From Methylococcus geothermalis (lineage in GTDB: Bacteria; Pseudomonadota; Gammaproteobacteria; Methylococcales; Methylococcaceae): a DNA stretch of 64,000 bases. The translations under genes were made by a program, and so were the position numbers. The stretch spans positions 62,001-126,000 of the forward strand of contig NZ_CP046565.1 in the NCBI RefSeq assembly GCF_012769535.1, given 5' to 3'. The notes beneath the pieces were generated by a model that made no database searches, was not told where the DNA came from, and was given only the letters and a program-made list of their open reading frames with translations. Below, in pieces: positions 4,968 through 47,945 of the stretch (position 1 is its first letter; the number at the start of each line of letters is the position of its first letter).

Positions 4968-6026
4968 TCAATGGGTCGCCAGGCCTGCGGGCGGCAGCCA
5001 GCCCTGCGACTTCAGCCGTTCCTCCGCGATGGCGAGCTGGCGGGGCGTGAACTGCTGCTTGCGGGGGTTCCAGGCATAGACCCGACGCGCCACGCTGTCG
5101 TGTTGGGTCGCGCCTTCGCGGCTCATCACCCAATGCACGGTGGCCAGCAGCTCCAGGCCGTAGGGCGATTCGAATCCTTCGACCAAGCGTGTGACGCGCT
5201 CGAAGCGGATGCGGCTGATTTCGTGCTGGTCGAGGAAGTCCTTGGCTTCCTCGACTGCACCGGGCACGAGGCTCAAGGGCTTGTCGGGGGCGTCGCCGCC
5301 GTCGGCGTAACCCGCGATCAGGTGACCTTCGACCGTGCGCAGCACGTGGCGAAGATTTTCCGCGTAAGGGCCATAAGGCCCCTTGACGTACTTCAGCCGC
5401 AGGGGCTCCCCCGCCTCCTGCATGAAGTACATCAGCTTGTGGACTTCCAGCAGAGTGACGAAGGGGTCGAGCAGGCCGTCAAGGTAACGTTGAATGAGTT
5501 CAACCAAAGCAGCACGGCCTGCCGTCATCTTGGGCACTTCCCGGACGTGGGCCATCCTGTCGCTGGCGGGAGCGCCGTTGGGTTCGAACACCAGCACCTG
5601 CACGTCGGCAAGACCCGCCAGGGCTCGCTCGATGCGAGGGCGCACCTCGTTCCAGTCCAGCCCACCCAAGCCACTGCCCAGCGGGGGGATGGCAATGGAG
5701 CGGATGCCCTTGTCGCGGATGACCTTCACGAGATCGACAAGGCCCGACTCGATGTCTTCGATACGGCTTTTGCCGCGCCAGTGGCGCTTGGTCGGGAAGT
5801 TGATGATGAAACGTGGCGGCGTGAGTTGGCCGGTCTCGAAGACGAACATGCGACCGGGCTGCACGGTTTCGCGCTTGCAGGCAGCCTCGTAAGCCTTGAA
5901 GTTTTCGGGGAAGGTGTTCTTGAACTGCAAGGCGATGCCGCGCCCCATGACGCCAACGCAGTTGACGGTGTTGACCAGCGCGTCTGCCTCGCACCTAAGG
6001 ATATCGCCAGAGGTGTATTCGATCAT
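4968..6026 (-). CDS. darG: DarG macrodomain antitoxin
   Basis: This 352-residue protein opens with a macrodomain, with NTVNCVGVMGRGIALQF in the first 40 residues and PPLGSGLGGLDW near 115. That fold in DarG removes ADP-ribose from thymidine in DNA. The C-terminal half, containing YGPYAENLRHVL, matches the DarG domain that binds and blocks DarT. I chose the ATG at 6026 because GAGAGGAG lies just upstream; a GTG at 6047 would directly abut the darT stop. It follows darT by 21 nt and precedes the methylase by 13 nt, so toxin, antitoxin and methylase are likely co-transcribed. Confidence 0.9.
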   Translation of the reverse strand: MIEYTSGDILRCEADALVNTVNCVGVMGRGIALQFKNTFPENFKAYEAACKRETVQPGRMFVFETGQLTPPRFIINFPTKRHWRGKSRIEDIESGLVDLVKVIRDKGIRSIAIPPLGSGLGGLDWNEVRPRIERALAGLADVQVLVFEPNGAPASDRMAHVREVPKMTAGRAALVELIQRYLDGLLDPFVTLLEVHKLMYFMQEAGEPLRLKYVKGPYGPYAENLRHVLRTVEGHLIAGYADGGDAPDKPLSLVPGAVEEAKDFLDQHEISRIRFERVTRLVEGFESPYGLELLATVHWVMSREGATQHDSVARRVYAWNPRKQQFTPRQLAIAEERLKSQGWLPPAGLATH

Positions 6027-6047
6027 GGCTGTGCTCCTCTCACTCAC

Positions 6048-6698
6048 TCAGTAATACCATTCCGGGCGGACTTCGACCGTGGGCCGGTGCCCGTGTGCGG
6101 GAATGGCGTTGACCACTTGTCGATACACCGTGTCCGACTGCACGCCGATACGCTCGATCAGGTGCCAAGGGAAGCGGTTCTCCAGCAGGAACTCTGCCTG
6201 TTTGCCTTCCTTGTGTGCTCGCCAGTCGCGGGCCTGCACGGCTGTCCAGTCGATCTCGTACAGATGCGCAAGATCACTGCGATCCTCGAAATAGTTCGAG
6301 CCTGCATTCGAGAGCGTGAAAGCCCAGCGCACGGACTGTGCGTTGGCCCAGGCGACCGTGGCATGCAGATCCGCCTCGAAGTGCAGGATCGGCCCTTGCC
6401 CGCCACGATAGGCCAACTCCTGATGATTGCCCTGATGGATCAAGTAGAGCATCACCGAGCGCGGACAGAAATAGAATGGGACGCAGTCGCCGACGTGCAG
6501 GTCGGGATGGCTGCTTAGACGCAGCTCGTTCAAGCGCCGCTGCTTGATGCTGCTCATGCCGATGGTTGTGCCCCCAGGCGCGCGCCGCACAACTTCCGCG
6601 TCGCACCAAAGACATCCATCAGCCACGATGGAGGGTAGGCGATCCACATGGGCGATGTGATAGATCTTTGGCCGGGGCGGCACGAGCACGGCACTCAT
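6048..6698 (-). CDS. darT: DarT DNA ADP-ribosyltransferase toxin (DUF4433)
   Basis: The 216-residue product matches the DarT/DUF4433 family, which attaches ADP-ribose from NAD+ to thymidines in single-stranded DNA and stops replication. Visible hallmarks are the N-terminal KIYHIAHVDRLPSI (11-24), GMSSIKQRRL (47-56), and KQAEFLLE, whose glutamate at about 169 fits the catalytic position. The start overlaps the DUF3780 stop by 4 nt (ATGA), and darG follows. DarTG pairs are known phage-defence modules. Here the pair sits inside a larger defence operon, not on its own. Confidence 0.9.
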   Translation of the reverse strand: MSAVLVPPRPKIYHIAHVDRLPSIVADGCLWCDAEVVRRAPGGTTIGMSSIKQRRLNELRLSSHPDLHVGDCVPFYFCPRSVMLYLIHQGNHQELAYRGGQGPILHFEADLHATVAWANAQSVRWAFTLSNAGSNYFEDRSDLAHLYEIDWTAVQARDWRAHKEGKQAEFLLENRFPWHLIERIGVQSDTVYRQVVNAIPAHGHRPTVEVRPEWYY

Positions 6699-15859: not shown

Positions 15860-16537
15860 ATGAACGACACACTGCAAGAGAACGATCCAGTCGAGATTCC
15901 GCCCAACGCGCCGCCGGCGGTGCCGGAGTTGTCGCAGTTGATGGTGCACCTGCTCAAGGGCGTGCTCTACCGCGACGACGACGAGCGGCTGTGGGCCAGC
16001 CTGCTGCGCCTGCAGGCGCGGGTGCGGGAACAGGCCGCCGTGCTGCTGCTCGACCTGGTGCTGGACGAGTCCGAGGGCTACGCCTTTCTGAAGAGCCGCC
16101 CGGACCCGGACGAGGCCGAGGGTGCGCCGCGCCTGCCGCGGCTCGTCGCGCGCCGGCCGCTGTCCTACCCGGTGAGCCTGATGCTGGCGCTGCTGCGCAA
16201 GCGCATGGCCGAGTTCGACGCCGGCGGTGGCGACACGCGGCTGGTGCTCTCGCGCGAAGACATCGCCGAGCTGATGCGGGTGTTTCTGCCGGATGGCACG
16301 AACGAGGCCCGGCTGATCGACCAGGTGGACGCGACCATCACCAAGGTGGTCGATCTGGGCTTTCTGCGCCGGCTGAAAGCCGCTGCCGGCGCGGCGCAGG
16401 ACAGGGGCAACTACGAGGTGCGGCGCATCCTGAAGGCCTTCGTCGACGCGCAGTGGCTGGCGGATTTCGATGCGCGGCTGGAGGTCTACCGCACCGCGCA
16501 GTCGGACGAGGCGATACAAGGTGGCAACCATGAGTGA
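15860..16537 (+). CDS. jetB: Wadjet subunit JetB (DUF4194)
   Basis: The 225-residue product is of the DUF4194/JetB family, a KITE-like protein with winged-helix domains that bridges the kleisin JetA and the SMC JetC. Recognisable stretches are [20 protein letters not shown] near the N-terminus and [16 protein letters not shown] in the second half. An upstream GAGGAACG can serve as ribosome-binding site. The stop overlaps the jetC start by 8 nt, indicating coupled translation. Confidence 0.92.
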
Positions 16538-19500
16538 AATGCAAACGCTGGGTCTGGACTTCGTGGCCGACGACAGCCGCGTGGGCTTCCGGATGCAGCG
16601 GCTGGAAGTGCTGAACTGGGGCACCTTCGACAAGCGTGTCTGGCGCTACGAGCTCGACGGGCGCAATGGCCTGCTCACGGGCGACATCGGTTCGGGCAAG
16701 TCCACGCTGGTCGACGCCATCACGACCTTGCTCGTGCCGGCGCATCGCGTGGCCTACAACAAGGCGGCCGGGGCGGATGCCCGCGAGCGCTCCTTGCGGT
16801 CCTACGTGCTGGGCCACTACAAGAGCGAGCGAAACGAGGTCACGGGTAGCAGCAAGCCCGTGGCGTTGCGCGATGCGTCGAGCTACTCGGTCATCCTCGG
16901 CGTCTTTCACAACGAGGGCTATGACCAGGTCGTGACGCTGGCCCAGGTCTTCTGGCTGAAGGACCCGCAAGGCCAACCCGCGCGCCTGTTCGTGGCGGCC
17001 GAGCGGGCATTGACCATCGCCGATGACTTCAGGGTCAACGGCGGCGACATCACCGCCCTGCGCAAGAAGCTGCGGGGCGCGGGCTGCGAGCTGTGCGACA
17101 GCTTCCCGCCTTACGGCGCCTGGTTCCGACGGCGTTTCGGCATCGACCACGAGCAGGCCCTGGAGCTGTTCCACCAGACGGTCTCGATGAAGTCGGTGGG
17201 CAACCTTACCGACTTCGTGCGCAGCCACATGCTGGAGCCCTTCGACTCAGGGCAACGCATCGAGGCCCTGATCCGCCACTTCGACGACCTGGACCGGGCC
17301 CACCAGGCCGTGCTCAAGGCCAAGCGGCAGGTGGACTTGCTGACGCCCCTGGTCGATGACGGCAAGCGTCACCAGACACTGACAGCCGAAATCCAGGGCT
17401 GGCGGGAGGCGCGCGATCAGCTTCGACCGTATTTCGCGCGGCTCAAGGGCGAGCTGCTGGACCGCCGCCTCGACTTGCTGGCGGAGGACGCTGCCCGGCT
17501 CGATGCACAGATCGAGCGCCTGGACGCGCAGCGTGAGACCGAGCGCGTGGAGATCGGCCGCCTGGAGCGGGCCCTGCGCGACAACGGCGGCGACCGGCTG
17601 GAGGAGCTGGCGGCGGAGATTCGCCGACTGGAAGGGGAGAAGGCTCAACGCCAGAAGAAATCCGACCGCTTCCAGGAGCTGCTGGCCCGCATCGACGAGT
17701 CGGCGCCTGCGGATGAGGCAGGTTTTCTCGCCCAGCAGCAGAGCATTGCCCAGCGTGCCGAAGGCTTGCGCGAGCGCATTGCCGACCTGGACAACCGGGA
17801 ACACGAAGAGGACTTCGCCTTTCGTAAGGGCCGTGAAGAGCACACCGCCTTGTCCGACGAGATCGACAGTCTCCAGCGGCGCAAGAGCAACATCGACGCC
17901 GCCCAGGTCCGCATCCGCGATGCGCTGTGTGCGGCGCTGGCGATCGGTGAGGACGAATTGCCTTTCGCGGGCGAGCTCCTCCAGGTGCGTGACGACGAGC
18001 GCGATTGGGAGGGTGCCGCCGAGCGGCTGCTGCGTGGCTTCGGCCTCTCGTTGCTGGTGCCGGATGCCCACTACAAGGCGGTTGGGGACTGGGTGGACCG
18101 CCAGCATCTGGGCGCGCGTCTCGTGTACTTCCACGTGCGGCCGCGACGGACGGCGCAAGGCACCGCTCTGCATCCGCAGTCGCTGGTGCGCAAGCTCGCC
18201 ATCAAGACCGATTCACCGCACTACGAGTGGCTGGAACAGGAGCTTCGCCTGCGCTTCGACGTCGCCTGCTGCGAGACCGGGGAGCAGTTTCGTCGCGAGG
18301 CGCGCGCCATCACGCGCGCGGGGCAGATCAAGGACCCGAGCGGTCGCCACGAGAAGGATGACCGCAGCCGGATCGACGACCGCAGCCGCTATGTGCTCGG
18401 CTGGAGCAATGCCGACAAGCTGCGCGCGTTGTGCGACCAGCGCGAGCGTCTGCAAGCGCGGTTGGCAGCGATGGCAGCTCGCATCGGCGAGATCCAGCAG
18501 GCGCGCAACGAACTGCGGGGCCGGCTGGAAGCCCTGAGCAAGCTGGAGGAGTTCACGCGCTTTGCCGACATCGACTGGATGAGCCTGGCCCGGCAGATCG
18601 CGACGCTCACCGAGGAGCGCGCGCGGCTGGAAGCCGCGTCCGACACCCTGCAGGAGTTGACGCGGCAGCTCAAGGCCGCGCAGGCCCGGCTCGACGAGCT
18701 GGAGGCCAAACGCACCGAGGCCGTGGGTCAGCGCGGCGAGCTCAAAAACAAGCGCGAGACCGCGCAGGCGCTGCGCGATCAGGCAAGCAACATTTGGAAC
18801 GCCATGCCGCTCACCGACGCGCAGATCGCGCATCTGGACGTGCTACGTACACAAGGCTTGGGTGAGCACAAGCTGTCGGTCGAGTCCTGCGACAACCGCG
18901 AGCAGGCGCTGCGCGGTTGGCTTCAGGACCGCATCGATACGGAGGACAAGCGCCTGGCGCGCCTGACCGAGCGCATCATCAACGCCATGCGCGGCTTCAA
19001 GGAGGAATTCAAGACCGAGACGGTCGAGATGGACGTGAGCCTGGCGGCGTTGCCGGAGTACGCGCGGATGCTGGCCGGATTGAAGCGCGACGATCTGCCG
19101 CGCTTCGAGGCACGCTTCAAGGAGCTGCTGAACGTCAACACGATCAACGAGATCGCCAACTTCAACGCCCAGCTCGCCCACAATCGCGAGAAGATCAAGG
19201 AGCGCGTCGACCTCATCAACCAGTCGCTGCAGGCCATCGACTACAACCCGGGCCGCTACATCAAGCTGGTGGCGTCGCCCAGCCCGGATGCGGAGATCCG
19301 CGACTTCCAGCAGGCTCTGCGGGCGTGTACCGAGGGCGCAATGACGGGCTCGGCCGACGAACAGTATTCGGAAGCCAAGTTCCTGCAGGTCAAGGCCATC
19401 ATCGACCGCTTCCGCGGCCGCGAAGGGCTGTTGGATGCTGACCGGCGCTGGACCGCCAAGGTCACCGACGTGCGCAACGGATTCCTGTTCTCGGCCAGCG

Positions 19501-19931
19501 AGCGCTGGCGCGCCGACGGTGCAGAGCACGAGCACTATTCCGACTCGGGCGGCAAATCGGGCGGCCAGAAGGAAAAGCTCGCCTACACCGTGCTGGCCGC
19601 GAGCCTGGCCTATCAATTCGGGCTGGAATGGGGCGCGGTGCGTTCGCGGTCGTTCCGCTTCGTCGTCATCGACGAAGCGTTCGGGCGCGGGTCGGACGAG
19701 TCGGCGCAGTACGGCTTGCGCTTGTTCCAGCAGCTCAACCTGCAGCTGTTGATCGTCACGCCGCTGCAGAAGATCCCCATCATCGAGCCCTTCGTTTCCA
19801 GCGTCGGCTTCGTGCACAACGAGGGCGGGCGCGATTCGCGGCTGTGCTGCCTGTCGATCGAGGAGTACCGGGCTCGAAAGGCGGAAGGGATGGCCGCCAC
19901 AGACGCGGCGGAAGGCGGCGCGGCGCCATGA
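16530..19931 (+). CDS. jetC: Wadjet SMC-like ATPase JetC
   Basis: From the ATG at 16530 (preceded by AAGGTGG) the protein is 1133 residues, an MukB/SMC-like motor. Walker A GDIGSGKS is at about 51-58. Long coiled coils occupy roughly 280-480 and 640-900. Near the C-terminus are the ABC signature [11 protein letters not shown] and Walker [17 protein letters not shown] frame extending 20 codons upstream exists but overlaps jetB further and lacks support. By family knowledge the dimer extrudes plasmid DNA loops for cleavage by JetD. The stop overlaps jetD by 4 nt. Confidence 0.95.
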
Positions 19932-21139
19932 GCTGGACCACGCCGGCAGATCTGCGCGCTCAGGTCCAACGCTTGTGGGACCGGGGCGACTTGCTGCGGG
20001 CGGCGGTGACCGATGCGCTCGCATGGCCTTTGCGCCTGAGCCTGAAGGCCCCCACCGCGGCGGACCTGTCCAATCGCTTCGAGGCGGTGCGCGACTGGGT
20101 GGGTTTGATCCAAGAGACGCCGCAGGTGCGGATCGAATGGCGCGAATGGAACCACCGCGTCCAGGGCCTGCAGCGGCTCCCGGCGGCCGTCTGGATCGAT
20201 TCCCTGCAGGATGCGCTGGCCTTCATCGGCAAGGCTCGTCCAGCGCAGCGCTTCGCGGCGCTCTGGCAGCAGACGGCAGCCGTGCAGCCGGCGCTTTTGG
20301 CGTGGCTGTCACGGCGGCCGATCCGGGCGCTGGATCTGGCCGACCGCTGGCAGCGTCTGCTGGCCGTCGTCACATGGATGCAGGCCCATCCTCGACCGGG
20401 CGTGTACCTGCGCCAGGTCGATGTGCCCGGCGTGGACAGCAAGTTCATCGAGGCCCATCAGGGCGTGTTGGGCGAACTGCTGGACCTGGCTCTGCCAGCC
20501 GAAGCCATCGAGCGTGACGCGACAGGCGTCGCGCAGTTCACGCGCCGATTCGGCTTCCTGGACAAGCCCGTGCGGATTCGGTTTCGCCTGCTCGATGCCA
20601 CCTTACCCAGCCTGCCGGGGTGCGCAGGCCTGCCCGACATCACGCTGGACGCCGCGAGTTTCGCGGCGCTGGCGCTCCCCGTCCGGCGCGTCTTCATCAC
20701 CGAGAACGAGACCAACTTCCTCGCCTTCCCGCCCGCAGCCAGCGCCATCGTGATCTTCGGCGCGGGCTACGGCTGGGAGGCTCTGGCACCCGCCGCGTGG
20801 CTGCAGCGCTGCCAGTTGCACTACTGGGGCGACATCGACACCCACGGGTTCGCCATCCTCGACCAGCTGCGCAGTCACTTTCCGGGCGTGGCGTCCTTCC
20901 TCATGGATCGGGAGACGCTCCTGGCCCACCGCCTGCACTGGGGCGAGGACCCCAAACCTGTGCGCCACGACCTGGCGCGGCTCACACCCGAGGAGGCAGC
21001 GGTCTATGATGAGCTCAAATTCAATCGCCACCAGCCCCGGCTGAGACTGGAGCAGGAGCGGGTGGGCTTTGGCTGGCTGTGCGATCGACTGGCGTGTGCC
21101 CCCTCGGGAGTCCGCTCAGTGCCACCCCCTTGCTCGTAA
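19928..21139 (+). CDS. jetD: Wadjet nuclease JetD (DUF3322/DUF2220)
   Basis: The 403-residue protein starts at the ATG overlapping the jetC stop (ATGA). The N-terminal half fits DUF3322. The C-terminal half fits DUF2220, a Toprim-like nuclease domain, with the acidic motifs ENETN (about 259-263) and WGDIDTHGF (about 299-307) that would hold metal. JetD cuts the plasmid once the complex has finished loop extrusion. The usual family ending ([11 protein letters not shown]) is followed by a short, odd proline/cysteine-rich tail of about 20 residues that looks like readthrough into non-coding sequence. Confidence 0.92.
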
Positions 21140-21217: not shown

Positions 21218-21693
21218 GCCTGTCTGCAGGCCGGCTGGCGCGGTTTGCGCGCTGGGCAACAAATTCCGAATGTCAGCGGGAATAGCCCGAGTGCTTTCCT
21301 GTGGAATGCCTTCCAGCCGGGTTCGGTGGTGTGCGCGGACGGATGGAGCGGTGACAACGCGCTTGCGAGCCATGGTAACCCGCGGCAGAAGGTTGTATGG
21401 TCTGCCACAGGAGATACTGCGCATGTCGCGATGGCGGGAGCGCACAGGCCGGATCGGGTGTCAGTACCTCTTGTTCCGGCAAAGGCCACTGCCGTCCGAG
21501 TTCAGCTTCGCTGCTCTTCGAGTCAGCTTCGCTGCTCTTCGAGTCAGTGCTCGAGAAAATGGACTTTAGTACTCATAAGGAAGATTCTAAGGAAGATTCG
21601 AAAAAAGGCGGGGCAAGAGCGTCGGTATGCTGCCAGAAACTTTCGGCTCGGCTGAGGATGGACATGGATGACAGCGCATACGGTCCCACGGTC
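21218..21693. other. Gene-free stretch with a tandem repeat
   Basis: No gene can be supported in these 476 bases. The stretch contains the 21-bp tandem repeat listed separately and a short repeated AAGGAAGATTC-like motif (21580-21600). It separates the defence island from the DUF1003 gene and looks like a junction of transferred and older DNA. Confidence 0.5.
21504..21545. repeat. Two tandem copies of a 21-bp repeat
   Basis: The unit beginning AGCTTCGCTGCTCTTCGA occurs at 21504-21524 and 21525-21545 without mismatch. The reverse complement of the same unit appears as a second tandem pair at 23704-23745. Two copies with no spacer rule out a CRISPR array. Confidence 0.9.
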
Positions 21694-22269
21694 TCAAGGC
21701 TCGTCTTCGCGTTTCCGTGTTGGTTGAGCCAGGGCCGACGCAAGCGCGTCCAATCGCTTTTCCATGGCCTCGATTCTGCGGTAGGTCTGGATCGTCACCT
21801 CGTAATCCAGCTCGGCACGCATGTCGGCGTAGGCACTCTGCCGGTTCTGGCTGATCAGGACGAAGCTGCCGATCAGTATCGCCTCGATCGCCAGGATGAT
21901 GCCGAGCAAGCCGTAGGGATATTCATCGAAGGCGTGGAAGAACGCCAGCATCCCCGAATTGGCCAGTATCCACACGGCAAACCATAGCAGGTGGATGGTG
22001 AGGAAGTGCGGATGTCCGGTGAAGCGAGTCACGCGATCCGCCAGTTTTTCAAACCGGCTGCGGTGGGCTTTGAGTTCCTCCAGGACATAGCGAAACTCCC
22101 CCAGCGCCTTGTGGCACGCCTGGTTGATGCAGAAGACGGTGTCGGCCGGGTTGGCTGTGCCGCATCCCGGACAGATCAGGACGCCGCCGCCCGGCTGCGG
22201 CGGTGATTGCCGGCTGTCCGTCAGGCTGGATTCCACACCGCACCTAGTCTGGGGATCGATCGTCGCCAT
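21694..22269 (-). CDS. DUF1003 membrane protein with zinc ribbon
   Basis: The 191-residue protein starts at ATG 22269, with AGGAGG six bases upstream. A zinc-ribbon-like part comes first (CPGCGTANPADTVFCINQAC, about 34-53). The DUF1003 region follows with two membrane segments (FLTIHLLWFAVWILANSG and LLGIILAIEAILIGSFVLIS), and the C-terminus is a coiled segment. DUF1003 proteins are inner-membrane proteins of unknown role. A longer frame upstream overlaps the neighbouring methyltransferase and is not protein-like. Confidence 0.85.
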   Translation of the reverse strand: MATIDPQTRCGVESSLTDSRQSPPQPGGGVLICPGCGTANPADTVFCINQACHKALGEFRYVLEELKAHRSRFEKLADRVTRFTGHPHFLTIHLLWFAVWILANSGMLAFFHAFDEYPYGLLGIILAIEAILIGSFVLISQNRQSAYADMRAELDYEVTIQTYRRIEAMEKRLDALASALAQPTRKREDEP

Positions 22270-22388
22270 TTGGGCCTCCTGAAGCCGGTACTGCGGGAAG
22301 GATAACGCCGAAGCGTTTCCCGGATGGTATCCCAACGGCGCCGCCGCTTCAGCAGAAATCGAACCCCATCCCAACCGGAGCAACACCG

Positions 22389-23219
22389 TCACACACCCGC
22401 TGTGTCGAGCTCTTTCAGCGGACGGCGTCCGATCACCTGGAATACCTGGGCGGTACTCTGGATGGACCGCGGATCGGCCTCGTGTCCCGCCAGCTCGCGA
22501 GCCAAGCGGTCGATTTCCTCGCGGCAAGTCAGCCCGGACGCCATCGCCGACTCGGCGATATTCGAGAGCGTGATCCGCGCGACCGTCTTGCCCTCGCCTT
22601 GCCGGAAGACGGGCATGGAAACCGCTACGTCCACGGCTTCCAGGCCGGCGTCGATCAGTAAGGCAGGAAGACGCGGACCGATGCCCGGATCGACGCCCCG
22701 AGCGCGCCCGGTGGCGGTGTACAGCTCGACGTAGCGCCGGAACGCCGCGCTCGGCGGCCAGTGGACATGGGCGGAGATGTCGATGTCCTCGACCACGACT
22801 CGGCCCAGCGGCCGGACGGCCCTGCACATCCGCCGGAGCGCGTCGCGGGGATCGGGGAGGTGAGACAGAAGGAAGCGCGCGTAAACGAGGTCGAACGAGT
22901 CCGTCTCGTCGACGTCCTCGATGCGGGCTTGCCGCCACTCAATCGGGAGGCCACAAGCGTCGGAATCCCGTTTCGCGTGCGCAAGGACGCCGGCGTCCAT
23001 GTCGATCCCCACGACCCGCCCGGTGGAGCCGGCGACCCGCGCAATCTCGACCGTCATGTCCCCGCTTCCGCAGCCCAGATCCAGCACGTCCATTCCGGGC
23101 GCCAAGCCGGCTCGCCCCAGAACCGCAAGGCTCGCCGGCCGCATGACGCGGCCGAGCACGTGCAGCCGTTCTGCCCCGGATTCGCCGCCGCGGATGATGT
23201 AGTGCGATTCGTTCGCCAT
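22389..23219 (-). CDS. Class I SAM-dependent methyltransferase
   Basis: The 276-residue protein has the Rossmann methyltransferase motif I VLDLGCGSGDMT (about 45-56), an acidic residue after beta-2 (VVGIDMDAG), and a motif IV-like FDLVYARFLLSHLPDP. This places it in the UbiE/Methyltransf_11-like group; the substrate cannot be told. It stands 119 nt upstream of the DUF1003 gene on the same strand. The ribosome-binding site is weak. Confidence 0.85.
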   Translation of the reverse strand: MANESHYIIRGGESGAERLHVLGRVMRPASLAVLGRAGLAPGMDVLDLGCGSGDMTVEIARVAGSTGRVVGIDMDAGVLAHAKRDSDACGLPIEWRQARIEDVDETDSFDLVYARFLLSHLPDPRDALRRMCRAVRPLGRVVVEDIDISAHVHWPPSAAFRRYVELYTATGRARGVDPGIGPRLPALLIDAGLEAVDVAVSMPVFRQGEGKTVARITLSNIAESAMASGLTCREEIDRLARELAGHEADPRSIQSTAQVFQVIGRRPLKELDTAGV

Positions 23220-23353
23220 ACGCCGTATCGGTTTTCGCCCCGTATGCCGATGGATTTTACTAAAGAGTTCCCGAGTCGCCGTCCGGCGATGCCGAAGGTA
23301 GCGATCCTCGGCAGGGTTCAGCCTCTCGACGGGACGGTCCGCCTGTCGATTGA

Positions 23354-23703
23354 TCCGGAAGTGCCGGAAACCGGGGCGGCACCACCAGGATCAACCCGGC
23401 CCTGGCCTACGAGACGCCGGACGAGGCCACCCCGCGCCGCATCGACGGCCTGCGGCTCATCGCCTACAATCCATCCAAGCGCAAGCCGGGCGGCCCGCGT
23501 CCCCCAGCAGCGAGACCTTCCCCTACCTGCTGGTGCGCACCCCTCCCGAGAGCGGCAGGAAGCGGCCGTATCTCAGCGCCGCCACCGAAGTGGAAATCGC
23601 CGGCTGGGAGCCGCGTTTCGCTCACCGCCGCCACTGGCGCGTGGGCGACATCGTGTTCCGGGACCACCAGGCGACCGTGCATGCGCGAACCCCGTTCCCC
23701 GCC
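23354..23703 (+). pseudogene. Decayed gene in two reading frames
   Basis: Protein-like text runs in one frame (INPALAYETPDEATPRRIDG, then LIAYNPSKRKPGGP) up to about 23505. It then continues in another frame (ETFPYLLVRTPPESGRKRPY, then AHRRHWRVGDIVFRDHQATV) to about 23700. The switch falls at a CCCCC run, so a one-base indel is the likely cause. No start or ribosome-binding site is clear and I do not recognise the family. Confidence 0.35.
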
Positions 23704-23745
23704 GACTCGAAGAGCAGCGAAGCTGACTCGAAGAGCGGCGAAGCT
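23704..23745. repeat. Second tandem pair of the 21-bp repeat, inverted
   Basis: The copies at 23704-23724 and 23725-23745 are the reverse complement of the pair at 21504-21545. The first is identical and the second has one A-to-G change. The pair ends 19 bases before the start codon of the nitroreductase-like gene. Confidence 0.9.
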
Positions 23746-23764
23746 GAGCCATCGATCGAAAACC

Positions 23765-24586
23765 ATGAGCCAGATCCGAACGCTACTCGCCTCACGATAC
23801 GGCCGGCACGAACCCGTCCCGGCCATCGCCTCGAACGAGGTCCTGGAACACCTGCTTTCCCACCGCTCGGTCCGCGCCTACACCGCCGAGCCCTTGGCCC
23901 CAGGCACGCTCGAAGCCTTGGTCGCCGCGGCCCAGTCCGCCGCCAGTTCGTCCAACCTCCAGCTCTGGAGCGTGGTCGCGGTCGAGGACGGCGAGCGGCG
24001 CGCCCGCCTGGCCGAATTGGCCGGCAACCAGGCCCACATCGTCCAGGCGCCGCTGTTCCTGGTCTGGCTGGCCGACCATGCCCGTCTGCGGCGGATCGCG
24101 GCCCAGCGCGGCATCGCCGCGGAGGGGCTGGATTACCTGGAGATGTACACCATGGCCGTGGTCGACGTCGCCCTGGCTGCGCAGAACGCCGTGGTCGCCG
24201 CCGAATCCTTGGGATTAGGCACGGTCTACATCGGCGCGATGCGCAACCACCCGGAACAGGTGGCGGCGGAACTCGGCCTGCCGCCGGGGGTTTTCGCCGT
24301 GTTCGGGCTCTGCGTCGGCCATCCCGACCCCGCCGTCCTCCCCGCCATCAAGCCGCGCCTGCCGCAGGAGGCGGTGCTGCACCGGGAAACCTATGCCCTG
24401 GAGGCGCAGGACGACGCGATTGGCCGTTATAACGCCGCCATGTCGGCGTTCTACGCCGAACAGAACATGGCGGTCTCGGGCGACTGGTCGAAACACTCCG
24501 CCGCCCGTATCTCCAGTCCCGCCAAGCTGTCCGGCCGCGACCGGCTCAAGGCGGCCCTGAACGCCCTCGGCTTCGAGCTGCGCTGA
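23765..24586 (+). CDS. NfsA-like NADPH-dependent flavin oxidoreductase
   Basis: The 273-residue product matches the NfsA/FRP branch of nitroreductases, which are FMN enzymes using NADPH to reduce nitro compounds or quinones. The signature HRSVRAYTAEPLAPGTLEAL is near residues 32-51. The middle has AAQSAASSSNLQLWSVV, and the FMN-binding end includes GLGTVYIGAMRNHPEQVA and FGLCVGHPDP. I start it at ATG 23765, because upstream lies the repeat pair. The ribosome-binding site is weak. It stops 1 nt before the deformylase remnant begins. Confidence 0.87.
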   Translation: MSQIRTLLASRYGRHEPVPAIASNEVLEHLLSHRSVRAYTAEPLAPGTLEALVAAAQSAASSSNLQLWSVVAVEDGERRARLAELAGNQAHIVQAPLFLVWLADHARLRRIAAQRGIAAEGLDYLEMYTMAVVDVALAAQNAVVAAESLGLGTVYIGAMRNHPEQVAAELGLPPGVFAVFGLCVGHPDPAVLPAIKPRLPQEAVLHRETYALEAQDDAIGRYNAAMSAFYAEQNMAVSGDWSKHSAARISSPAKLSGRDRLKAALNALGFELR

Positions 24587-25176: not shown

Positions 25177-25611
25177 TTACCCCGCGCCGCCGGCCGGAAG
25201 CACTTTTACCCCTTGCAGCGCCCCGATCAATGGACAGGAAACGTTCCCCTTCGACGCATGGCAGGCCCCTATCAGATCGGACAGCGCAGCCTCCATGCGC
25301 GCCAAGTCCGCCTGTTTCTCACGCACATCCTTGAGCTTGTGCTCAGCCAGGCTGGCGGCTTCCTCGCAATGGGTGCCATCATCCAGGCGCAGCAGCTCGG
25401 CGATCTCGTCCAAGCTGAATCCCAGCCGTTGAGCTGACTTCACGAACCGCACCCGCATCACATCCGTCTCGCCATAACGGCGAATGCTGCCGTAAGGCTT
25501 GTCCGGCTCCGGCAACAAGCCCCTGCGTTGATAGAACCGGATGGTTTCCACATGGACTCCGGCCGCCTTGGCGAAGGCGCCGATGGTCAGGTTTTCCGGA
25601 TTTTTCTCCAT
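25177..25611 (-). CDS. merR: Mercury-responsive regulator MerR
   Basis: From ATG 25611 the protein is 144 residues, the standard MerR length. The helix-turn-helix ([20 protein letters not shown]) is at about 10-29. All three Hg(II)-binding cysteines are present: GTHC at about 82, GAC at about 117 and VSC at about 126. It represses and, with mercury, activates the divergent merTPA promoter by untwisting it. The gene is divergent from merT, with the shared promoter between. Confidence 0.95.
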
Positions 25612-25616
25612 GACGC

Positions 25617-25647
25617 TTGACTCCGTACACAACTACGGGAGTAAGGT
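25617..25647 (+). promoter_or_regulatory. merTPA promoter with MerR operator
   Basis: The -35 box TTGACT (25617-25622) and -10 box TAAGGT (25642-25647) are separated by 19 bases, the over-long spacing that MerR-type activators correct. The dyad CCGTA-N6-TACGG (25623-25638) lies inside the spacer as the MerR operator. The merR start codon lies just outside the -35. Confidence 0.92.
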
Positions 25648-25682
25648 TACGCTACCCATTGCAGATTCGAAAGGACAACCGC

Positions 25683-26033
25683 ATGACTGAATCACAAAAC
25701 GGGCGCGGCGCCCTCTTCGCCGGCGGGCTGGCCGCCCTTCTTGCTTCTGCTTGCTGCCTGGGGCCGCTAGTCTTGGTCGCGCTGGGTTTCAGTGGGGCCT
25801 GGATTGGCAACTTGACCGTGCTGGAGCCGTATCGCCCAATCTTCATTGGAGCGGCACTGGTGGCGCTGTTTTTCGCATGGCGACGTATTTTCCGCCCGGT
25901 GGAAACCTGCCATCCGGGCGAGGTCTGTTCGGTCCCGCAGGTGCGCGATACCCACAAGCTCATCTTCTATGTTGTGGCCACGCTGGTCGTGGCCGCGATC
26001 GTGTTTCCCTACGTCCTTCCCTTGTTCTACTGA
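25683..26033 (+). CDS. merT: Mercuric transporter MerT
   Basis: The 116-residue inner-membrane protein has three predicted membrane helices. The paired cysteines ACCLG sit in the first helix (about 24-25) and a cytoplasmic pair, CHPGEVC, lies between helices two and three. These hand Hg(II) from MerP to MerA. The length equals that of classical Tn21/Tn501 MerT. I start at ATG 25683, 36 bases after the -10 box. Confidence 0.95.
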   Translation: MTESQNGRGALFAGGLAALLASACCLGPLVLVALGFSGAWIGNLTVLEPYRPIFIGAALVALFFAWRRIFRPVETCHPGEVCSVPQVRDTHKLIFYVVATLVVAAIVFPYVLPLFY

Positions 26034-26046
26034 TCACGGGTTCACC

Positions 26047-26325
26047 ATGAAAAAACTGCTTGCATCGTTCGTATTCGCCAGCCTCGTGGCCACGCCGGCA
26101 TGGGCGGCGATTCAAACCGTCACGCTGTCCGTGCCGGGCATGACCTGCGCCGCCTGCCCGATCACCGTCAAGAAAGCACTCTCCAAGGTCGATGGCGTCA
26201 GCAAGGTCGACGTGAATTTCGAGAAGCGCCAAGCCGTCGTGACCTTCGATGATGCCAGGACCCATGTGGAGGCGTTGACCAAAGCGACAGCCGATGCGGG
26301 CTATCCATCCGAAGTGATGCAATGA
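26047..26325 (+). CDS. merP: Periplasmic mercury-binding protein MerP
   Basis: The 92-residue protein has a signal peptide (MKKLLASFVFASLVATPAWA) and one heavy-metal-associated domain with GMTCAAC. Its two cysteines bind Hg(II) in the periplasm and pass it to MerT. It lies 13 nt after merT and 44 nt before merA in one operon. Confidence 0.95.
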   Translation: MKKLLASFVFASLVATPAWAAIQTVTLSVPGMTCAACPITVKKALSKVDGVSKVDVNFEKRQAVVTFDDARTHVEALTKATADAGYPSEVMQ

Positions 26326-26357
26326 GTACATCAAGATCGAAACCTGACTGGAGATGA

Positions 26358-28055
<1,698 letters not shown>

Positions 28056-47754: not shown

Positions 47755-47945
47755 CCAGTATTCCCTGTAACGCTCGAAGCGTGCTGGGTTACTCTTTGAG
47801 CCTAATCTAAAACCCCGGGACTTTCGGGTGTTCGATGTGCGCAAGTCCGCTCCGAGCGGAAAGCCTGATTCGGCATCCTCAAATCCCACCTGAACCATAT
47901 GGTTCAAGGGCGAAAGCATGCTACGGCGCAAACGGGGAATACTCT
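47755..47945 (+). ncRNA. ssrS: 6S RNA
   Basis: The segment between zapA and fau has the 6S architecture. The 5' end AGTATTCCC (47757-47765) pairs with GGGAATACT (47935-47943). Near the 3' part is the hallmark hairpin TGAACCATATGGTTCA (47891-47906), and a large internal loop lies between. 6S RNA imitates an open promoter and holds RNA polymerase in stationary phase. A possible -10 TAAGAT lies at 47743-47748. Ends are accurate to a few bases only. Confidence 0.88.

Follow-up and report, generated by a model that had tools for sequence, protein, structure and literature searches.

Two short tandem repeats in opposite orientation lie in the window, the 64,000-nucleotide stretch of Methylococcus geothermalis DNA that was analyzed here. 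A preliminary description of this DNA placed tandem copies at these positions, which is confirmed. AGCTTCGCTGCTCTTCGAGTC occurs exactly on the plus strand at 21504-21524 and 21525-21545, and recurs inverted on the minus strand, exactly at 23704-23724 and with one mismatch at 23725-23745. When extended to 21502-21545 and 23704-23747, the arms are 44 nt long, 98% complementary, and separated by 2158 nt. In 100 dinucleotide shuffles of the window there are no matches at three or fewer mismatches, compared to the four observed. The left-hand pair (s1) is located between a JetD gene and a DUF1003 gene. The arms enclose the DUF1003 gene, a methyltransferase gene, and a decayed gene that is TauD-like by a weak match below the Pfam cut-off, and the right-hand pair (s2) ends 19 bases 5' of the ATG of a nitroreductase-family gene. 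The features discussed below are as follows.

21504..21524, minus strand: first unit of s1, which reads GACTCGAAGAGCAGCGAAGCT on this strand (exact match)
21525..21545, minus strand: second tandem unit of s1 (exact match)
21613..23286, no strand given: segment with the DUF1003 and methyltransferase genes that one relative (G002) carries elsewhere, a neighbour outside the element (comparison with relatives)
23357..23703, plus strand: decayed TauD-like gene, recipient of the s2 units (weak Pfam TauD match, alignment)
23704..23724, plus strand: first unit of s2, at the 3' end of the decayed TauD-like gene (exact match)
23706..23714, plus strand: predicted hairpin 1 of the first s2 unit, CTC-GAA-GAG, with a GNA triloop (fold and covariation)
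23715..23725, plus strand: predicted hairpin 2 of the first s2 unit, CAGC-GAA-GCTG, which takes the G of the next GA (fold and covariation)
23725..23745, plus strand: second tandem unit of s2, with A13 changed to G (one mismatch)
23765..24586, plus strand: nitroreductase-family gene, a neighbour outside the element (Pfam PF00881)

Wadjet-type genes occupy 16470-21139, directly upstream of s1, where an SMC-like ATPase gene (SbcC Walker B) is followed by JetD (DUF3322, JetD_C). A second, unrelated tandem repeat, TAAGGAAGATTC, is present twice at 21576-21599, 31 bases after s1. Open frames at 25177-28055 resemble what we take to be a mercury-resistance cluster (MerR-, MerT-, MerP- and MerA-like). 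Within the window, Rfam gives a single match at the gathering threshold, a 6S RNA (RF00013, 79.7 bits) at 47759-47942, and a search of the window for tRNAs found none. A known structured RNA was rejected as the identity of the repeat, which has no Rfam gathering match.

Counted over the entire genome, the unit is dispersed and not confined to the window. The 3.37-Mb single contig carries 21 copies at 17 sites when up to three mismatches are allowed, and a control pattern, the unit read backwards, has no match in this genome at the same threshold. The genus set consists of the window's genome (G000) and five relatives (G001-G005). All six Methylococcus genomes contain the unit, with 191 copies at two or fewer mismatches (20, 6, 21, 34, 109 and 1 per genome) and none for the control. 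An exact-match scan of named genomes returned Methylococcus capsulatus Texas and one Methylococcus metagenome-assembled genome. Allowing one mismatch, 7 of 38 genomes of the family match, the seventh (G015) with a single copy. A looser pattern searched against 311 genomes of the order matches ten of them, which are the six of the genus and G011, G015, G123 and G296, and has no control matches. Ten matches at two or fewer mismatches occur in G296, a member of another family of the order, and about seven of these look genuine by eye. One G296 unit lies four codons into what is presumably an ArgH-like protein and another near the start of a presumed ParA-like protein. Some of the 17 matches from outside the genus are probably due to chance, because 3 of 13 genomes had one control match each.

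The 71-bp s1 region has no match among phages and plasmids. A single IMG/VR contig contains the unit, as two tandem copies in frame within a 436-aa open frame (5024-6334); judging by its IMG number, we take this contig to be a provirus of M. capsulatus Bath. A search of the published literature that included the letters of the unit and its peptides found no description of it. The part of PMC10341722 that counts dispersed-repeat groups in M. capsulatus names no 21-bp unit, and the repeat terms searched have no match in a paper on Methylococcus prophages (PMC12924245).

The preliminary description suggested that the bracketing of 2.2 kb by inverted pairs might mark an inversion, a non-autonomous mobile unit, or a repeat that lies at gene borders throughout the genome. 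The length, inverted arrangement and complementarity of the arms (44 nt, 98%) would suit an invertible or mobile unit of 2.2 kb; the points against it are as follows. Two of the five relatives searched, G002 and G004, carry a large part of the bracketed segment. G002 has 21613-23286 at a distance of 41 kb from the nitroreductase gene, G004 has the methyltransferase part next to this gene, and in both the segment is oriented relative to the nitroreductase gene as it is in the window, which argues against inversion. Mobility of the whole is likewise not supported: the part common to G002 ends short of both repeats, and four relatives have the TauD-nitroreductase junction without the right-hand repeat. 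Moreover, s2 was gained independently. In the alignment, this site lacks the unit in G001, G002, G003 and G005 and holds a decayed 20-nt copy in G004, and in the window's genome two units replace about 56 bp of the TauD-like 3' end that is present in relatives. For s1, none of the five relatives has matching flanks on both sides. The bracketing needs no special cause, because 17 array sites in the genome would by chance alone yield 0.18 pairs lying within 2.2 kb of each other. A 2.2-kb unit is therefore scarcely credible; the two inverted pairs are best read as independent insertions, and the bracket is incidental. The idea of a genome-wide repeat comes nearest of the three, except that the unit is found inside genes, in frame, as well as at their borders.

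The 21 letters of the unit divide into GA, CTC-GNA-GAG, C and RGC-GNA-GCY. DNA folding predicts two hairpins, of which the second also takes in the G of the next GA; single-unit fold energies are no better than those of shuffles and are uninformative for so short a sequence. Among the 199 units listed, pair 13-21 is A-T in 113, G-C in 48, G-T in 18, A-C in 16 and of other types in 4, and pair 14-20 is G-C in 182 and A-T in 8. These two stem-2 pairs, 14-20 and 13-21, have the highest mutual information of all 210 column pairs. Covariation over the distinct units (56/57), which counts sequences with shared descent and not events, is 0.199 compared to 0.142 ± 0.012 for shuffles; none of 500 shuffles is as high, and all slides score lower. 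With rows from outside the genus the values are 0.250 and 0.131 ± 0.028, again with 0 of 500 shuffles as high, in a set of 17 rows (16 distinct, some probably chance) and three genus representatives that includes G296 rows of shared descent and mainly tests pair 13-21, as positions 3, 7, 13, 17 and 21 alone are free in the search pattern. T-A and C-G pair types also appear in this set. In neither set do pairs altered on both sides outnumber those in shuffles.

The two loops conform to GNA in 51 and 49 of the 57 distinct units, with a variable middle base between a conserved G and A. Very stable DNA mini-hairpins follow a GNA-loop rule, and GCGAAGC is noted to melt at 78 degrees (PMC4686876). 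The unit contains GCGNAGC. Because the loops obey the rule for stable DNA mini-hairpins, the probable structured form is single-stranded DNA in which the GACTCG strand folds, and RNA is possible too.

Comparisons between close relatives reveal sites that differ by the presence of the unit. The joined flanks of 21 sites were searched against the genus, and 16 sites were then aligned. Clean 21-bp differences from orthologues are found at pmbA, thiD, an RND-pump gene (s11), s5, a DUF6513 gene and locus L102. For example, pmbA reads TCT/unit/GAGACG in G000 and TCTGAGACG in G002. At thiD, G004 and G003 carry the unit, which G000, G001, G002 and G005 lack; at the RND-pump site it is present in G000 and G005 and missing from the other four. 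Four genomes are filled and G002 is empty at s5, four are filled and two empty at L102, and the DUF6513 gene is empty in three genomes and has 9, 1 and 2 units in the other three. Both s11 and the DUF6513 gene also differ just to the right of the insert. At s2, s8, s13, ubiG and polA, sequence is replaced or diverged and the gain is not clean. A wrbA-like gene carries the unit in all six genomes, in decayed form in two, and pyrG has diverged single copies in three genomes and none in two.

The phase of the unit is fixed as far as tested. A search outside known arrays with the unit rotated by half, a design that leaves phases close to the true one beyond its reach, returned only overlaps with known units or their flanks and three-mismatch matches at about the control level. 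In the flanks of 32 bare site families among the matches listed, C is present at -2 in 29, G at +1 in 32, A at +2 in 31, A at +3 in 23 and C at +5 in 20, with GA in 31. These flank positions lie outside the 21-letter pattern that gave nearly all sites; the pattern of the first genome scan included GA. The preferred target is C-N^GA. Because GA is shared, each event can be read either as an insertion of 21 bp without duplication or as one of 19 bp with a 2-bp duplication of GA. The unit is very probably a mobile element with fixed ends.

Arrays of the unit occur in two contexts. At least 199 units form at least 96 arrays across 72 loci; the collection lacks a few G004 sites, and the totals of units, arrays and site families are lower bounds. 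Among the matches listed, 33 of 96 arrays lie in the loop of a GTAG-tagged REPIN-like palindrome, GTAGGGTGGATAAGCG..CATCCACC-N-[unit]n-GAATTTGG-CGGATG..CTTATCCGCCCTAC, where n ranges from 1 to 14. At least 24 of these are in G004, five in G002, and two each in G003 and G000. REPINs that lack the unit were not found by an exact gapped pattern. The other 63 of the 96 listed arrays, which represent 32 site families including one in G015, have no REP stems. Sites s1 and s2 are both of this bare kind, in or beside genes.

GTAG-tagged inverted REPs are described as the mark of REPINs (PMC3116915, PMC3733652). Y1 genes are present in all six genus genomes, and a RAYT flanked on both sides by the carrier REP is found intact in G003, as one intact and one broken gene in G004, and broken in G002. 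The G003 gene matches NF047646 with 187.8 bits against a cut-off of 80, and one of its REP flanks has a single mismatch. Among the Y1 matches examined, no carrier-REP RAYT was found in G000 or G001, both of which carry units. Other Y1 transposase genes in G003 (L152) and G002 (L154) are flanked by different GTAG REPs, GTAGGTCCGATTAGCG and GTAGGGCGGGTTAGCG, and the genus therefore has several RAYT-REP pairs. In G003 (L147, L114) and G002 (L157, L128), the carrier-REP RAYT is located about 2-7 kb from a cluster of bare units. This cluster surrounds tonB, a TonB-dependent receptor gene, and genes that we take from their sequences to be exbB and exbD.

The unit is seven codons long, and inserts keep the reading frame, including those in ispD, polA, pyrG and thiD. 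Hosts recognized by Pfam are IspD, the CTP synthase C-terminus, ThiD, PmbA, TonB, TonB-dependent receptors, sulfate permease, DUF447, and DNA polymerase I, where the unit lies between the two exonuclease parts; a methyltransferase host is called UbiG from its sequence. Codon usage, open frames and Pfam assign a frame in 22 of the 32 site families among the matches listed, and the ten outside this count are s1, s2, s8, s13, L100a, L114b, L127, L124c, ispDup and G015. Fifteen families read DSKSSEA or variants, three TRRAAKL, two SSAALRV and two QLRCSSS, and the frame with a stop is used by none of the 22. Such a pattern is expected if units insert and only the tolerated inserts survive selection. 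In G004, a TonB-dependent receptor (L107) contains 13 tandem units in frame and a DUF6513 protein (L103) contains nine, all of them within the consensus, which suggests recent array growth. At L025 of the window's genome (1310-1729), the frame of a TacA1 antitoxin continues across one unit into a likely GNAT acetyltransferase end, an arrangement that a deletion joining two genes at the unit could have produced.

The reading that best accommodates these observations, to which we assign a probability of roughly 0.58, is that the unit is a mobile element of ultra-small size, inserted at C-N^GA in the form of a folded strand. The element would be the 21 nt GA + CTC-GNA-GAG + C + NGC-GNA-GCN', moving as folded single-stranded DNA. 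Its GACTCG strand would carry two GNA mini-hairpins whose feet coincide with the ends of the element. A putative enzyme may act at these feet on C-N^GA, a step that we put at slightly below even odds. For arrays borne by REPINs, the RAYT (Y1 HUH) transposase that belongs to the carrier REP could provide a further means of dispersal; RAYTs would account for the spread of these arrays, and any role on bare units is only putative. More tentatively still, the 21-nt double mini-hairpin may itself be the transposing species. It would then be one of the smallest elements known and would consist of single-stranded DNA, with an HUH-type or similar nuclease, acting in trans, that cuts and joins it at C-N^GA at its hairpin feet. 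Such an element could add whole seven-residue blocks to essential proteins, and its GNA triloops would be under DNA-level selection in more than one family of the order.

Clean transposition is opposed by the several sites where sequence is replaced or diverged and by the resemblance of the target to the unit's own junction, which template switching would also give. The main rival is slippage in trans that needs no dedicated enzyme. Here, a nascent strand with C-N-GA at its end would anneal to C-Y-GA in an array elsewhere, copy one or more units and return, while the two mini-hairpins of the copied unit hold the bulge until it is fixed. This route would fit targets that share C-N-GA and C at +5 with the unit junction, the common tandem arrays of 1-14 units, and the right flanks of s11 and the DUF6513 gene, which look partly converted towards GACTC. 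Nevertheless, GA occurs four times in the unit and the half-rotated search found no rotated copies, and GAA is favored at the target (A at +3 in 23 of 32 listed families) where the unit has GAC. We regard slippage as unlikely, if less so than the other alternatives.

It is also conceivable that the unit is merely part of a REPIN, with RAYTs moving whole REPINs and the copies in genes having lost both stems. The 33 of 96 listed arrays in REPIN-like loops, and the RAYT of the carrier REP in three species, agree with this. However, the 63 stemless listed arrays, in 32 site families, have the same ends, several stemless sites differ from orthologues by whole units only, and exact loss of both stems so many times is unlikely. 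In addition, G296 has units in or beside genes, and in the stretches read the carrier REP is absent from the 60 bases on either side. These facts make such an origin quite improbable. Even less probable is that the unit is kept for its peptide, with protein-level selection having spread DSKSSEA as a beneficial linker or tag. The use of this frame or variants by 15 of 22 families has a P of 1e-6 if the five open frames are equal, but selection against harmful frames after insertion explains the skew, the remaining seven families use other frames or the opposite strand, and the REPIN-borne copies are non-coding.

In function and anatomy, the unit resembles the small dispersed repeats (SDRs) of Nostoc and relatives. 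Elhai and coworkers reportedly described these in 2008 as dispersed repeats of 21-27 nt whose predicted structure has compensatory changes. SDRs are also said to occur often inside mini-transposons and to insert precisely at a preferred target. By these criteria, the Methylococcus unit is a dispersed 21-nt repeat with defined ends, its predicted structure is backed by compensatory changes, and it has been gained recently at sites that are empty in close relatives (pmbA, thiD, s5 and others). In contrast to SDRs, it comes from another phylum, has another sequence and two GNA-triloop mini-hairpins, lies in frame in essential genes and in long tandem arrays, has GTAG REPINs as carriers, and targets C-N^GA. 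SDR5 is cited as inserting in HIP1 (PMC4390886). Membership among SDRs would require a shared sequence or mechanism, and the unit is therefore set beside them as an element of a similar kind.

Other small elements share single traits with the unit. Like REPIN/RAYT systems, it is found in GTAG-tagged inverted-REP loops (33 of 96 listed arrays) with a RAYT in three species, but it lacks the GTAG tag and has its own ends and its own target. Since the stems are missing in 63 of the 96 listed arrays, the unit is not itself a REPIN. Rickettsia palindromic elements are larger single palindromes of about 100-150 bp. They insert in frame into genes for likely functional proteins (PMC3733652), as does the unit (22 of 32 listed families have an assigned open frame). 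Assignment to this type was rejected, as the unit is 21 bp with two short stems and tandem arrays in place of one long palindrome. The predicted hairpin feet that mark the ends, and the presumed single structured strand, resemble those of IS200/IS605 (Y1) elements. Unlike these, the unit has no internal gene and prefers bases on both sides (C-N and GA), not one 5' target tetranucleotide.

To our knowledge, the mechanism of ultra-small elements has been an open question since the cyanobacterial SDRs. If the Methylococcus unit moves as folded single-stranded DNA, it would represent mobile DNA near its lower size limit and would link ultra-small repeats to hairpin-recognizing transposases. It would also provide a simple natural route to short in-frame protein inserts. 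The combination of defined ends, a preferred target, and sites that vary between close relatives makes the mechanism directly testable in culturable methanotrophs.
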